Below are positions 14,106 to 17,675 of a DNA stretch of 64,000 bases, piece by piece. The stretch is from Ruminococcaceae bacterium YAD3003 (GTDB lineage: Bacteria > Bacillota > Clostridia > Saccharofermentanales > Saccharofermentanaceae): contig FNPA01000007.1 in the NCBI GenBank assembly GCA_900107185.1, forward strand, positions 62,001 to 126,000, written 5' to 3'. The first letter of the stretch is position 1; the number at the start of each line of letters is the position of its first letter. The position numbers were made by a program, and so were the translations under genes. The notes beneath the pieces are model-generated. The model saw nothing but the letters and a program-made list of their open reading frames with translations, was not told where the DNA came from and ran no database searches.

Positions 14106-14840
14106 TTAACGGGCCTTCTTTCCCGCGTCTGTTTCAAGAAGAGCCTTAAGTGTTTTCTCGTGGCTTCTTGTAGAACGGGGATAGAAAATCTCCTTGTATT
14201 CAATGCCTTTACGATTGCAGATAGCAGAGACAAAAAACTCTGCGAGATTGGGATTTTTAAGAAGGACAGGACCTATGAGACTTATTCCCAGAAGATTGTG
14301 TACACGGGCAGCATCCTTTGTAATCGGAACGTTTCCGATCACCTTGATGGCATCACAGCACATGTCCTCAGTGCTGTCAGGAATACCCGCGCGGTTAACA
14401 AATCCGACAAAGCGGTCCTTCGTGGCAACTTCTTCGAGAACAACATCTCCTGTGTAACGCTTTTCGAGCTGTTCCTTAAATGAATAGTTGAAGATGCCGA
14501 GGCCTTCTAAGAAAGTGCCGTCAGCAGTAGTAATACCCTTGCCGAGCAGATCGTAACTGTTGCCCGTAAAGAGCATCGGAACACCGTTTACTACGGCTCT
14601 TAAAAGTGATCCCTTGAATCTAGACAAATGAGCAAGAGCCAGGTTTCTGTTCGACTCATACCCTGAACCCATGTATACAAAATCAGCATCAAAATCGATA
14701 TCGTCATCGTATACCGTGCTGTTCTCGATCACGACATTGAATCCCTGGTCTTCGAGCCTGCGCTGCATTATACGGACGTTACCGTTATCGCCATAAAGAT
14801 TCATGAAATCAGCATACAAATAAAGGATCTTTACTGTCAT
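14106..14840 (-). CDS. gatD: GatD-like glutamine amidotransferase, catalytic residues missing
   Basis: By family, GatD frees ammonia from glutamine and passes it to MurT to amidate lipid II D-glutamate. This 244-residue protein aligns along its length with S. aureus GatD (NLYGDNGNV near the N-terminus, DGTFLEGLGIF at 107-117, LLGISLIGPVLLKN at 183-196). The nucleophile motif ICGGYQ reads TGNSYD here, so Gly93 stands where Cys94 is expected, and the catalytic His of YLHGP is Ile189. Both residues of the glutaminase pair are thus absent and glutamine hydrolysis is not expected. It overlaps murT by 4 bp. It may be a structural subunit, use free ammonia, or serve another reaction. Confidence 0.85.
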   Translation of the reverse strand: MTVKILYLYADFMNLYGDNGNVRIMQRRLEDQGFNVVIENSTVYDDDIDFDADFVYMGSGYESNRNLALAHLSRFKGSLLRAVVNGVPMLFTGNSYDLLGKGITTADGTFLEGLGIFNYSFKEQLEKRYTGDVVLEEVATKDRFVGFVNRAGIPDSTEDMCCDAIKVIGNVPITKDAARVHNLLGISLIGPVLLKNPNLAEFFVSAICNRKGIEYKEIFYPRSTRSHEKTLKALLETDAGKKAR

Positions 14841-16180
14841 GTAAGTTCCCTCCTTGTAACGATCGAGAGAATCTTTTCTTTATCAGAGAAACATGTAATT
14901 ACATAGAGATATGAATCAAGATTATTGCAGTTATCTGCTGCCTCCTGAACAGTCTCATAAACCTGGACCTTATCCTGGTCGATTCCTGCCAGATCAAATC
15001 TTACAGCAAGGTCATCGCAATACTGGCCGACCAGGAAGATCTTATCGATCTCAGTTTCCTTGAGCTTCTCGAAATTAATATCCCAGAGCCAGCTGGAATC
15101 AGAAGTGTAATACTTACGGCTGATCGCATCGACGATGATCATTACACTCTTTTTCCTGCTGTCACCTACAACAACATCGATCGAACGGTCATAAGAAACT
15201 GAATTTTCATGCTTTGACAAAAGGAGTCTTCCCTGTGTCTTGCCCAATGTAAAGTCAGAGATACGGCCTGACTTAAGGACGTATCCGCTGAGAGAAGAAG
15301 CAACCTTTTCAGGTTCAATTCCAATGGCTGTTGCAGCAGTAAATGCAGCCAGGATATTGTAGCAGTGGTAGATTCCCGTAAAGAAAACGGAAATCTCGTA
15401 CTTATCATCGATAGTGATCGAAGCTTTACCGTTCTCATCTTTTGTCTCGGTAAGAGCATGATCGATCTTAGGTCTTGAGAAACCACAATGGAGACATTTG
15501 AACTTACCGATGTGGTTATAGTGGTAATACTCATATTTCATGGGCTTCTTACAAATGGGGCAATATTTGCCGTCATCGTAAACGCCTTCATTCCTGAGCT
15601 TATCTCCGGGAAGGATTCTGGCGCCGAAATAAATAGTGCCTTCCCTGTCCTTACCAAAGCTTGCAACCAGCGGATCGTCGGCATTGAGGATCAGCGTCAT
15701 ATCATCGTAGATAGCCTGACCAATGATGCTCTTGATCCATTCAGGATGGCCGTTTCTGGTCATCTGATCTCTATAAAGGTTATTAATTACCAGATATTTG
15801 GGATGAAAATACTTAAATGTATGTCTGGCATAACGTTCATCAGCTTCGAGCAGAACGATATCACTTAACACCTTACCCTTCATGTTGGAAGCGCCTAAAA
15901 GGAAAGTAACCACGCCTTCGATCTGGTTGGAACCTTCTTTGTTATAAGCAACCTTATATCCGTTGTTCTGGAGCACGTGGGCGATCATTTCAACAGAAGA
16001 TGTCTTACCGTTTGAACCTGTAACAGCAATTGAGAGTTCCGGGAGCTCCAAATGAGCCAGAATGTCCGGACAGATCTTCAATGCGTATTTGCCGGGCAGA
16101 CTCGAACCGCGCCCGAAAAGCTTTGCCAAGCCTCTGACCGCCTTGCAAACTACTAATGCTGTAAATGCTCGTATCTTCAT
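14837..16180 (-). CDS. murT: MurT-like Mur ligase domain protein
   Basis: ATP-dependent ligase partner of the GatD-like protein, 447 residues. Seen: P-loop TGSNGKTS at 54-61, the Mur ligase core with LEADERYARHTF and LNADDPLVAS, a four-Cys zinc ribbon CPIC...CLHC in the insertion typical of MurT, and the DUF1727-type C-terminal domain with SWLWDINFE. The family motifs around NPAGFN and N-D-x-x-A-D-G that precede SW are largely altered (HENSVSYD and VDAISRKYYT). Together with the degenerate GatD this suggests a diverged paralogue. The ATG at 16180 has no clear ribosome binding site and an extended -10 lies 9 bp upstream. Confidence 0.85.
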   Translation of the reverse strand: MKIRAFTALVVCKAVRGLAKLFGRGSSLPGKYALKICPDILAHLELPELSIAVTGSNGKTSSVEMIAHVLQNNGYKVAYNKEGSNQIEGVVTFLLGASNMKGKVLSDIVLLEADERYARHTFKYFHPKYLVINNLYRDQMTRNGHPEWIKSIIGQAIYDDMTLILNADDPLVASFGKDREGTIYFGARILPGDKLRNEGVYDDGKYCPICKKPMKYEYYHYNHIGKFKCLHCGFSRPKIDHALTETKDENGKASITIDDKYEISVFFTGIYHCYNILAAFTAATAIGIEPEKVASSLSGYVLKSGRISDFTLGKTQGRLLLSKHENSVSYDRSIDVVVGDSRKKSVMIIVDAISRKYYTSDSSWLWDINFEKLKETEIDKIFLVGQYCDDLAVRFDLAGIDQDKVQVYETVQEAADNCNNLDSYLYVITCFSDKEKILSIVTRRELT

Positions 16181-16189
16181 AACCCCGTA

Positions 16190-16198
16190 ATTATAGCA
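16190..16198 (-). promoter_or_regulatory. Extended -10 promoter of murT-gatD
   Basis: Minus-strand TGCTATAAT ends 9 bp before the murT ATG, leaving room for at most a few untranslated bases. No good -35. A 7-bp inverted repeat CAGGTTT/AAACCTG (16209-16235) lies just upstream in the divergent region. Confidence 0.5.
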
Positions 16199-16292
16199 AA
16201 TTTGAATTCAGGTTTCTTTATTTGTCACAAACCTGTAAATTCCCGTTCTGAAAGTTATCAGGCAGTTTGGAAAGAAAATGCACAAGAAAAGG

Positions 16293-16320
16293 TTTACATT
16301 TTCGGATTGTGGTATATAAT
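16293..16320 (+). promoter_or_regulatory. Promoter of pheL-pheA
   Basis: TTTACA (16293-16298), 16-bp spacer, TATAAT (16315-16320). The expected transcription start falls at about 16326-16328, on or next to the leader peptide ATG. Confidence 0.75.
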
Positions 16321-16326
16321 TGCCAC

Positions 16327-16392
16327 ATGACTAATTTTGCATTTACATGGCGTGACTTTTCATTTTTTGCCTTTACGAATAGGGGTAATTAG
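16327..16392 (+). CDS. pheL: pheA leader peptide, Phe-rich
   Basis: A 21-codon reading frame (ATG 16327, TAG 16390-16392) between the promoter and pheA. Six codons are Phe (positions 4, 6, 11, 13, 14, 16), with one Trp at 8; the core reads DFSFFAF. It has no upstream ribosome binding site because the predicted transcript begins at about the ATG. Its stop codon overlaps the first of three mutually exclusive RNA segments that precede pheA. By analogy with E. coli pheL it would sense charged tRNA-Phe: stalled ribosomes allow pheA expression. Found from sequence; expression not shown. Confidence 0.75.
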   Translation: MTNFAFTWRDFSFFAFTNRGN

Positions 16393-16472
16393 TTCACTGC
16401 ATGTAAATAAATAGCTTGATTTACGTTGATTATAGGGCCCCGCAGTGAACAAGACTGTGGGGCTTAATTTAT
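16392..16472 (+). promoter_or_regulatory. Transcription attenuator of pheA
   Basis: Segment 1 GTTCACTGC (16392-16400) is perfectly complementary over 9 bp to segment 2 GCAGTGAAC (16442-16450). Segment 2 overlaps the 5-prime arm of a second stem, GCCCCGCAGT (16437-16446) with ACTGTGGGGC (16454-16463), 10 bp including one G-T, followed by TTAATTTAT. The two stems cannot coexist. A ribosome at the leader stop would cover segment 1 and favour the terminator stem; one stalled at the Phe codons would leave the 1-2 pairing free. The U-tract is weak, so termination strength is uncertain. Confidence 0.7.
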
Positions 16473-16492
16473 GTCAAAAGGAGAAAAGAACA

Positions 16493-17623
16493 ATGACACA
16501 GAAACAGGCAGGAAAACGAATCGAAGAGATCGACGAGAAGATCAAGGAGCTCTTCGCAGAACGCTTGGAGGCAAGCAAAACAGCAAACGAGACCTTGAGC
16601 AAATCAGAAATCGCCCTGAAGAGCAGACGTTATGAACGAAGCTACTTGGCAGGACTTGAGAGCTCAAACCAGCTCATAGACAATTACGAGCGTGTTCTTT
16701 TCTCCACAATGTTTAATCTGAGCCACTCATACAGAAACACCGAATACGGTACCAGAACCGAACTCGCTGACCAGATCAAGAAAGCCCTCGAGACAACACC
16801 CAACGAACTGCCCAAGGCACCCATGGTTGCCTGCCAGGGAATTGAAGGCGCTTATTCACAGATCGCAACAGACAAGATCTTCCGTCACGCCAACATCATG
16901 TATTTCAGAACTTTCGATGGTGTATTCCAGGCAGTTGAATCAGGCCTCTGCAAATTCGGCATCCTCCCTATCGAGAACAGTTCATTCGGTTCAGTTACAC
17001 AGGTTTATGACCTCATGGTCGGCCACAACTTCCACATCGTAAAAGACTACAAACTCCAGATCAGCCACAAGCTCCTGGCTAACCACGGCACCAGATTCGA
17101 CGATATCCGTGAGGTTTATTCACATAACCAGGCAATCGGCCAGTGCAGCAAATTCCTTAAGGAACACCCCGATATCAAGGTAAACATCGTTGAGAATACT
17201 GCTATCGCAGCAAAGAGCGTTGCAGATTCAGGCCGTAAAGACGTAGCTGCTATATCTTCCTCCGACTGCCAACAGCTCTACGGATTGGAAGCTGTACGTG
17301 ATGATATCCAGAACACAGACAATAACTACACAAGATTCATCTGCATCACCAAAGAGCTCATGATCTTCCCCGGCGCATCGAAGACATCAGTCATGCTCGC
17401 ATTGGGCCACACACCGGGCGCTCTCGCAGACACACTCGCGAAGTTCTCTTCTTTGGGATTGAACCTCACTAAGATCGAGTCACGTCCTGTTCCGGGTAAG
17501 GATTTTGAATTCATGTTCTATCTTGATTTCGAAGCATCTGTATACTCCGATGAAGTAATTGCGTTGTTGTGCGAATTAGATGCAGAGCCGACTGAGTTCG
17601 CATATCTTGGAACTTATATCTGA
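16493..17623 (+). CDS. pheA: Prephenate dehydratase with N-terminal chorismate-mutase-like domain
   Basis: Converts prephenate to phenylpyruvate for phenylalanine synthesis. The protein has about 376 residues: a helical AroQ-like domain (1-95), the dehydratase domain (about 110-285) with IEGAYSQIA, ENSSFGSV and the catalytic NNYTRF, and an ACT domain (about 295-376) with GALADTL and ESRPVPGK for feedback by Phe. In an ungapped comparison with the E. coli P-protein the mutase residues Arg11, Lys39, Asp48 and Arg51 fall on Gly, Leu, Ser and Tyr, while Arg28 and Glu52 are kept, so mutase activity is doubtful. Start ATG 16493 with AAAGGAG nine bp upstream. Controlled by the leader and attenuator described separately. 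Confidence 0.93.
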   Translation: MTQKQAGKRIEEIDEKIKELFAERLEASKTANETLSKSEIALKSRRYERSYLAGLESSNQLIDNYERVLFSTMFNLSHSYRNTEYGTRTELADQIKKALETTPNELPKAPMVACQGIEGAYSQIATDKIFRHANIMYFRTFDGVFQAVESGLCKFGILPIENSSFGSVTQVYDLMVGHNFHIVKDYKLQISHKLLANHGTRFDDIREVYSHNQAIGQCSKFLKEHPDIKVNIVENTAIAAKSVADSGRKDVAAISSSDCQQLYGLEAVRDDIQNTDNNYTRFICITKELMIFPGASKTSVMLALGHTPGALADTLAKFSSLGLNLTKIESRPVPGKDFEFMFYLDFEASVYSDEVIALLCELDAEPTEFAYLGTYI

Positions 17624-17648
17624 TAGATACTAAAACCGTGTTATTTAT

Positions 17649-17675
17649 GGCCGCCTTGCTTGAGGCGGCCTTTTT
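17649..17675 (+). terminator. Rho-independent terminator of pheA
   Basis: Perfect 8-bp stem GGCCGCCT (17649-17656) with AGGCGGCC (17663-17670), then TTTTT. Confidence 0.92.

Follow-up and report, generated by a model that had tools for sequence, protein, structure and literature searches.

The enterobacterial pheL leader of pheA encodes a Phe-rich peptide within a transcript that can form mutually exclusive 1:2, 2:3 and 3:4 helices, a mode of control familiar chiefly in enterics. In Firmicutes, where T-boxes prevail, leader-peptide transcription attenuators with His codons are known upstream of his genes in the B. cereus group, Peptostreptococcaceae, Lutispora and Erysipelotrichales (Naville and Gautheret 2010, PMC2965389; Rodionov et al. 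2022, PMC9413887), and for S. aureus ilvD suppressor mutations and reporters have provided evidence of a Leu/Ile leader (Kaiser et al. 2018, PMC5794164). In S. meliloti, transcription of the trpL leader starts directly at its AUG (PMC7298713), the C. glutamicum ilvB leader has been discussed and treated as leaderless (PMC11857589), and trp, leu, ilv and cys leaders have been predicted in Actinobacteria (PMC1262725).

We analyzed a 64,000-nucleotide stretch of DNA from the Saccharofermentans-like Clostridia member Ruminococcaceae bacterium YAD3003 (the window) and, with high confidence, interpret the region upstream of its pheA gene as a ribosome-mediated transcription attenuator that would sense charged tRNA-Phe; by comparative tests, this element is real and conserved, and it is very probably functional. 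It has in common with pheL-pheA the regulated gene, a Phe-rich leader and three mutually exclusive helices, but it differs in showing no sequence match in Rfam, in its phylum, and in the predicted leaderless start of its message. The His leaders of Firmicutes are of the same regulatory type but carry other codons and precede other genes. With S. aureus ilvD it shares a Firmicute host and an amino-acid-responsive leader peptide followed by a terminator, although the proposed ilvD antiterminator sequesters the poly-U tail and does not share the terminator 5′ arm. The predicted start at the AUG recalls S. meliloti trpL and C. glutamicum ilvB, which belong to Alphaproteobacteria and Actinobacteria and concern Trp and branched-chain amino acids. 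An earlier sequence-only reading of this locus implied that such logic is unusual in Firmicutes, where it named T-box or TRAP control as better known for aromatic genes, a fair remark but an overstated one, because His and Leu/Ile leaders were already known there. In the open-access literature we found no report of a Phe leader-peptide attenuator in Firmicutes, nor of a leaderless leader-peptide attenuator in Firmicutes (Bacillota).

A conserved Phe-rich frame lies upstream of pheA

The pheA gene (16493-17623, forward strand) encodes a prephenate dehydratase (PF00800, E 1.5e-57) with an ACT-like C-terminal part (the PF01842 match, at E 2.1e-4, is below cut-off), and a terminator-like hairpin lies 3′ of it at ∼17648-17675. 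On the opposite strand (14106-16180), a divergent pair of genes for a MurT-like ligase and a CobB/CobQ-like amidotransferase adjoins the pheA promoter. The leader frame (MTNFAFTWRDFSFFAFTNRGN; 16327-16392, forward strand) runs from an ATG at 16327 to a TAG stop at 16390-16392, and six of its 21 codons (4, 6, 11, 13, 14 and 16) specify Phe, each as TTT. The sequence-only reading had described such a frame behind a good promoter; coordinates and codons agree with the sequence, and the promoter (-35 TTTACA at 16293-16298, 16-nt spacer, -10 TATAAT at 16315-16320) matches consensus at 11 of 12 positions. When 16181-16492 was shuffled 5000 times with dinucleotide content preserved, a short ATG frame with at least six Phe codons arose in 41 shuffles (∼0.8%); judged from the window alone, the excess over chance is suggestive, and chance is ruled out because the frame is conserved over 40 loci.

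Those 40 loci are the one in the window and 39 from relatives, extracted from 80 loci returned by a pheA protein search, with 57-96% protein identity, from Saccharofermentans, Mageeibacillus and rumen or gut metagenome-assembled genomes. All 40 carry, upstream of pheA, a short frame (17-29 codons) rich in codons for the product of the downstream gene, with 5-9 Phe codons each. Leader sequences differ considerably (for example, MTNFAFTWRDFSFFAFTNRGN, MNKFAFTWRDFFFFAFTNRGN, MRNFWFTSFDFTFFALTKSE, MMNIWSTSFNFWFFAFT and MNRKSFTSFDFFFGFGFFTRSE), but indels among the Phe codons preserve the reading frame, TTT and TTC replace each other, and in most sequences the stop ends 3-7 nt before a conserved CACTGC, including cases in which another codon serves as the stop. 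The stop lies 16 nt before CACTGC in L025 and L026, and in L037 the frame runs past it; in nearly all loci the stop thus keeps close to segment 2, described below. Codon choice is reversed between the leaders (TTT:TTC of 230:23) and the pheA genes that follow them (59:728), a large difference even though the kinship of the loci deprives a P value of meaning; elsewhere in the window, genes use TTT and TTC in mixed proportions. The TTT preference could make the leader more sensitive to tRNA-Phe charging or could reflect RNA constraints, and part of the bias may be due to constraints of RNA structure.

The leader mRNA is predicted to be leaderless

Transcription usually starts ∼7 nt downstream of a -10 box. 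Among the relatives the -35 and -10 boxes are highly conserved, the spacer and the DNA further upstream vary, and the gap between the -10 box and the leader ATG measures 6 nt in 34 of the 40 loci, 7 nt in five and 9 nt in one. A Shine-Dalgarno-like 4-mer within 20 nt upstream of the leader ATG occurs in only two loci, leaving 38 of 40 without one. Because of this 6-nt spacing and the missing Shine-Dalgarno sequence, we predict that the leader mRNA is leaderless, and given the usual start distance we expect the A of the AUG (16327) to be its first nucleotide. Genome-wide, TATAAT-N5-8-ATG had 130 matches (65+65) compared with 101 (44+57) in a reversed control, so that enrichment is not clear; a few of the matches run into long frames (L095, L098, L109 and L111).

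Within the same genus, one subclade has pheA without the leader (L209-L213). At L210, L211 and L214, where a leader peptide is likewise missing, a TATAAT box stands 7 nt ahead of pheA itself, whose own mRNA is possibly leaderless there.

Three alternative helices show covariation

Helix search and folding of the window leader delineated four segments, all on the forward strand. Segment 1 (ATTTACATG..GTGA; 16341-16349 and 16352-16355) lies within codons 5-10 of the leader frame and pairs with segment 2 (GTTCACTGC plus ATGTAAAT; 16392-16408) through 16341-16349:16400-16408 and 16352-16355:16394-16397. Segment 2 can instead pair with segment 3 (GCCCCGCAGTGAAC; 16437-16450): GTTCACTGC at 16392-16400 is perfectly complementary to GCAGTGAAC at 16442-16450, and this antiterminator helix is extended by a local hairpin, 16401-16408:16419-16426 with ATTTACGT as its 3′ arm, which is 72.5% paired and is retained mainly among close relatives. 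The 5′ part of segment 3 (16437-16446) in turn pairs with segment 4 (ACTGTGGGGC; 16454-16463) in a terminator-like stem of 10 bp, or 12 counting two outer G-U pairs. The U-rich tail behind this stem (TTAATTTAT, 16464-16472; TTAATTTATG) is weak in the window and better in most relatives; stem and tail together have the form of an intrinsic terminator with a U-tract. The 9-mer pairing at the stop, the 10-bp stem and the weak U-tract had all been described in the sequence-only reading and are borne out; segment 1, the local hairpin and the 6-nt spacing from -10 box to ATG without a Shine-Dalgarno sequence are additions to it. Because segment 1 pairs with segment 2, the 1:2/2:3/3:4 architecture is complete. 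The window leader folds far below its shuffles (z of −4.1).

Pair statistics were determined on 32 distinct sequences (alignment A1), whose kinship inflates the covariation scores. The 3:4 stem was 98.7% paired, with changes on both sides in five of its 10 pairs, a value reached in 0 of 500 shuffles. The 2:3 core was 99.3% paired, with 14 double-change cells compared with 5.1 in shuffles and a covariation score of 0.157 compared with 0.062, and 1:2 was 87% paired, with eight double-change cells compared with 2.5. For 1:2 and the 2:3 core, the count of double-change pairs was within the range of the shuffles (78 of 500 and 67 of 500, respectively), but their double-change cells and covariation scores did exceed the shuffles. 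Sliding the arms by 1-3 columns reduced each of the three helices to 26-55% paired. Replacement of whole helix arms can also be followed from sequence to sequence (ATTTACATG:CATGTAAAT, GTCTACAAGC:GCTTGTAGAT and TTTTTGGTTTACA:TGTAAACCGAGAA). The protector helix 1:2, which reaches into the coding region, is weak, absent or unconvincing in the most diverged subgroup (L035 and L037-L039). Since segment 3 takes part in both 2:3 and 3:4, and segment 2 in both 1:2 and 2:3, the covariation of these mutually exclusive antiterminator and terminator helices is evidence for a switch and not for a single fold. Thus, the regions upstream of pheA in relatives, which the sequence-only reading had proposed to compare, contain both Phe-rich frames and alternative covarying stems.

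Helix geometry is compatible with control by a translating ribosome

In the mechanism that we propose, transcription would start at the leader ATG or within ∼3 nt of it, and a ribosome would load on the leaderless mRNA and trail RNA polymerase. When Phe-tRNA is low, the ribosome would stall at a Phe codon, mainly one of codons 11-16, covering segment 1 and leaving segment 2 free to capture segment 3 as it emerges; 3:4 would then come too late, and pheA would be transcribed. With ample Phe-tRNA, the ribosome would reach the stop at 16390 and cover the 5′ part of segment 2, allowing 3:4 to form and terminate transcription. If the leader were not translated, 1:2 would form and 3:4 would again terminate.

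We examined this geometry with a masking model, in which RNA under the ribosome is hidden and the free nascent RNA is folded, assuming a footprint that extends 12 nt downstream of the start of the A-site codon. With the A site at any of the six Phe codons, the model gave 2:3 a probability of 0.95-1.0 once segment 3 had emerged. A ribosome placed at the stop codon covered segment 2, the 2:3 core was lost and 3:4 formed, and the full leader without a ribosome formed 1:2 (0.97) plus 3:4 (1.0). At equilibrium 3:4 is more stable than 2:3 (−19.1 compared with −14.7 kcal/mol), and antitermination must therefore be kinetic, occurring during transcription, as in classical attenuators, which likewise switch while the RNA is being made. 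The suggestion of pheL-type logic in the sequence-only reading thus held up, with Phe-rich frames, covarying alternative stems, a footprint-compatible geometry and no T-box at pheA.

On a rival reading, favored by the weak U-tract in the window, 3:4 would terminate inefficiently and the leader would act mainly through translation, reinitiation or mRNA stability. We consider this improbable, because the Shine-Dalgarno sequence of pheA (AAGGAG, 16478-16483) lies outside the terminator stem and every other conserved helix, a clear GC stem leads into TTTT or a longer T run in most relatives, and covariation in the 3:4 stem is strong. Alternative helices alone would equally suit a tRNA- or ligand-binding RNA, either T-box-like or a riboswitch, with an incidental Phe-rich frame, and T-boxes frequently control amino-acid genes in Firmicutes. 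We give this reading very little credence, because no Rfam family, T-box (RF00230) included, reached gathering score in the window, because the conserved columns are those of the coding frame and the three helices, and because the in-frame indels, TTT/TTC swaps and tracking stop are a coding signature. (When hits to the leader with E up to 10 were considered, Rfam returned just two families, both unrelated and judged to be chance: a weak trpB motif, which scored 18.8 bits where the cut-off is 59, and FTX_1.) In S. meliloti, both the peptide and the sRNA derived from trpL have trans roles (PMC7298713), which raises the further idea that the short frame encodes a small protein with a function of its own, or that the leader is a trans-acting sRNA, with attenuation secondary. 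This seems barely credible for the present leader, in which conservation is limited to Phe richness and a loose F.FT..F..FF[AG]F pattern and the terminal residues vary. We therefore favor transcription attenuation by a leader-translating ribosome.

Distribution of the attenuator and coexistence with a T-box

A covariance model built for the element (R1) identified it in 65 genomes. These all belong to a single genus, the family's other four genera gave no match, and searching 188 genomes of the order added no further genome. Inspection of the weakest single matches placed L141-L148 each upstream of pheA and assigned the match in G038 to a glmS element described below. A putatively Phe-specific and probably leaderless attenuator is thus documented as conserved in a genus whose members are mostly Clostridia of the rumen and gut. 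The weak matches L130, L133, L135, L249, L250 and L252 were rejected, as they resemble GC-rich terminators and are without a leader frame. At L130 (G084:C1:197574-197676), the stem GGCCCCGCAGTGAACAAGACTGCGGGGC is near-identical to the terminator of the pheA attenuator and stands before an unrelated gene.

In sister genera, no Phe-rich leader was found except for one isolated case, before a pheA-like gene in L233 (∼1185-1420), where a Phe-rich frame (MITRWFKNTEYFRFFRFAFTSRPQLLMQTV) with AAAGGA ahead of it is followed by a strong terminator.

The genome from which the window comes has five T-box matches elsewhere, one of them just before trpE. This T-box (L082; G000:C17:224872-225118) is directly upstream on the same strand (trpE match at C17:224295-224705). 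Because a T-box precedes trpE and none is found at pheA, Trp and Phe synthesis appear to use different RNA sensors in this organism, and two RNA sensing systems, leader peptide and T-box, would coexist within one aromatic pathway.

A related element upstream of glmS

Nine relatives (G016, G023, G025, G038, G053, G062, G069, G084 and G091) carry a related element upstream of glmS, a gene identified by its SIS and GATase domains. The leader of this element in Saccharofermentans (L157-L165) reads MK[IM]IWFISY[AE]YAL.A[SC].., with Tyr codons 9 and 11 occupying positions of Phe codons in the pheA leader. A -10-like TAAAAT precedes the ATG by 6 nt, the same spacing as at the pheA leader, TGGTTTAYAAGCTWTG is common to the glmS element and the pheA leader of the same clade, and a TTCACTGC:GC[AG]GTGAA core is common to both elements. 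The 2:3 stem comprises 9-14 bp, and the 1:2 helix is clear in L157-L159 and L162 but not in the others. In the relatives read outside the subclade, and in the genome of the window, glmS is without the element.

We tentatively suggest, at somewhat less than even confidence, that the leaderless attenuator arose for pheA in Saccharofermentans and was copied or recruited to glmS in one subclade, where the sensor changed and the 2:3/3:4 switch was kept. If so, the Phe cluster was replaced by MK[IM]IWFISY[AE]YAL, and translation of a short peptide, not the glmS ribozyme, would control glmS; the element would be a natural case of an RNA switch retained while its sensor codons changed. Five glmS loci tested gave no Rfam match, glmS ribozyme included, and we found no glmS leader peptide in Firmicutes in the open-access literature.

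Tyr/Phe-rich leaders in other families of Clostridia

Outside the genus, R1 matched leaders in six genomes, all from a single genus in another family of Clostridia, that are led by a Shine-Dalgarno sequence and rich in Tyr and Phe (MSLFVFAAAYFYFYFIM..), before aroF (PF00793) and tyrA (PF02153). These aroF-tyrA leaders (L244, L246 and L253-L256; family f53, genus g206) read ..AAYFYFYFIM.. and have alternative helices and a terminator. Together with the glmS element, the aroF leaders suggest that leader-peptide attenuation is commoner in Clostridia than annotation shows; the aroF leaders may have arrived at the same logic independently. A third family is represented by L251 (reverse strand), with MNTLNLTSIAYIYFFSFTGFFYRKAFLRAVAR before an aroF whose product is 64% identical to that of L244; its leader, also preceded by a Shine-Dalgarno sequence, is Tyr/Phe-rich (..AYIYFFSFTGFFY..) and is followed by a GC-rich terminator and then the DAHP synthase gene.
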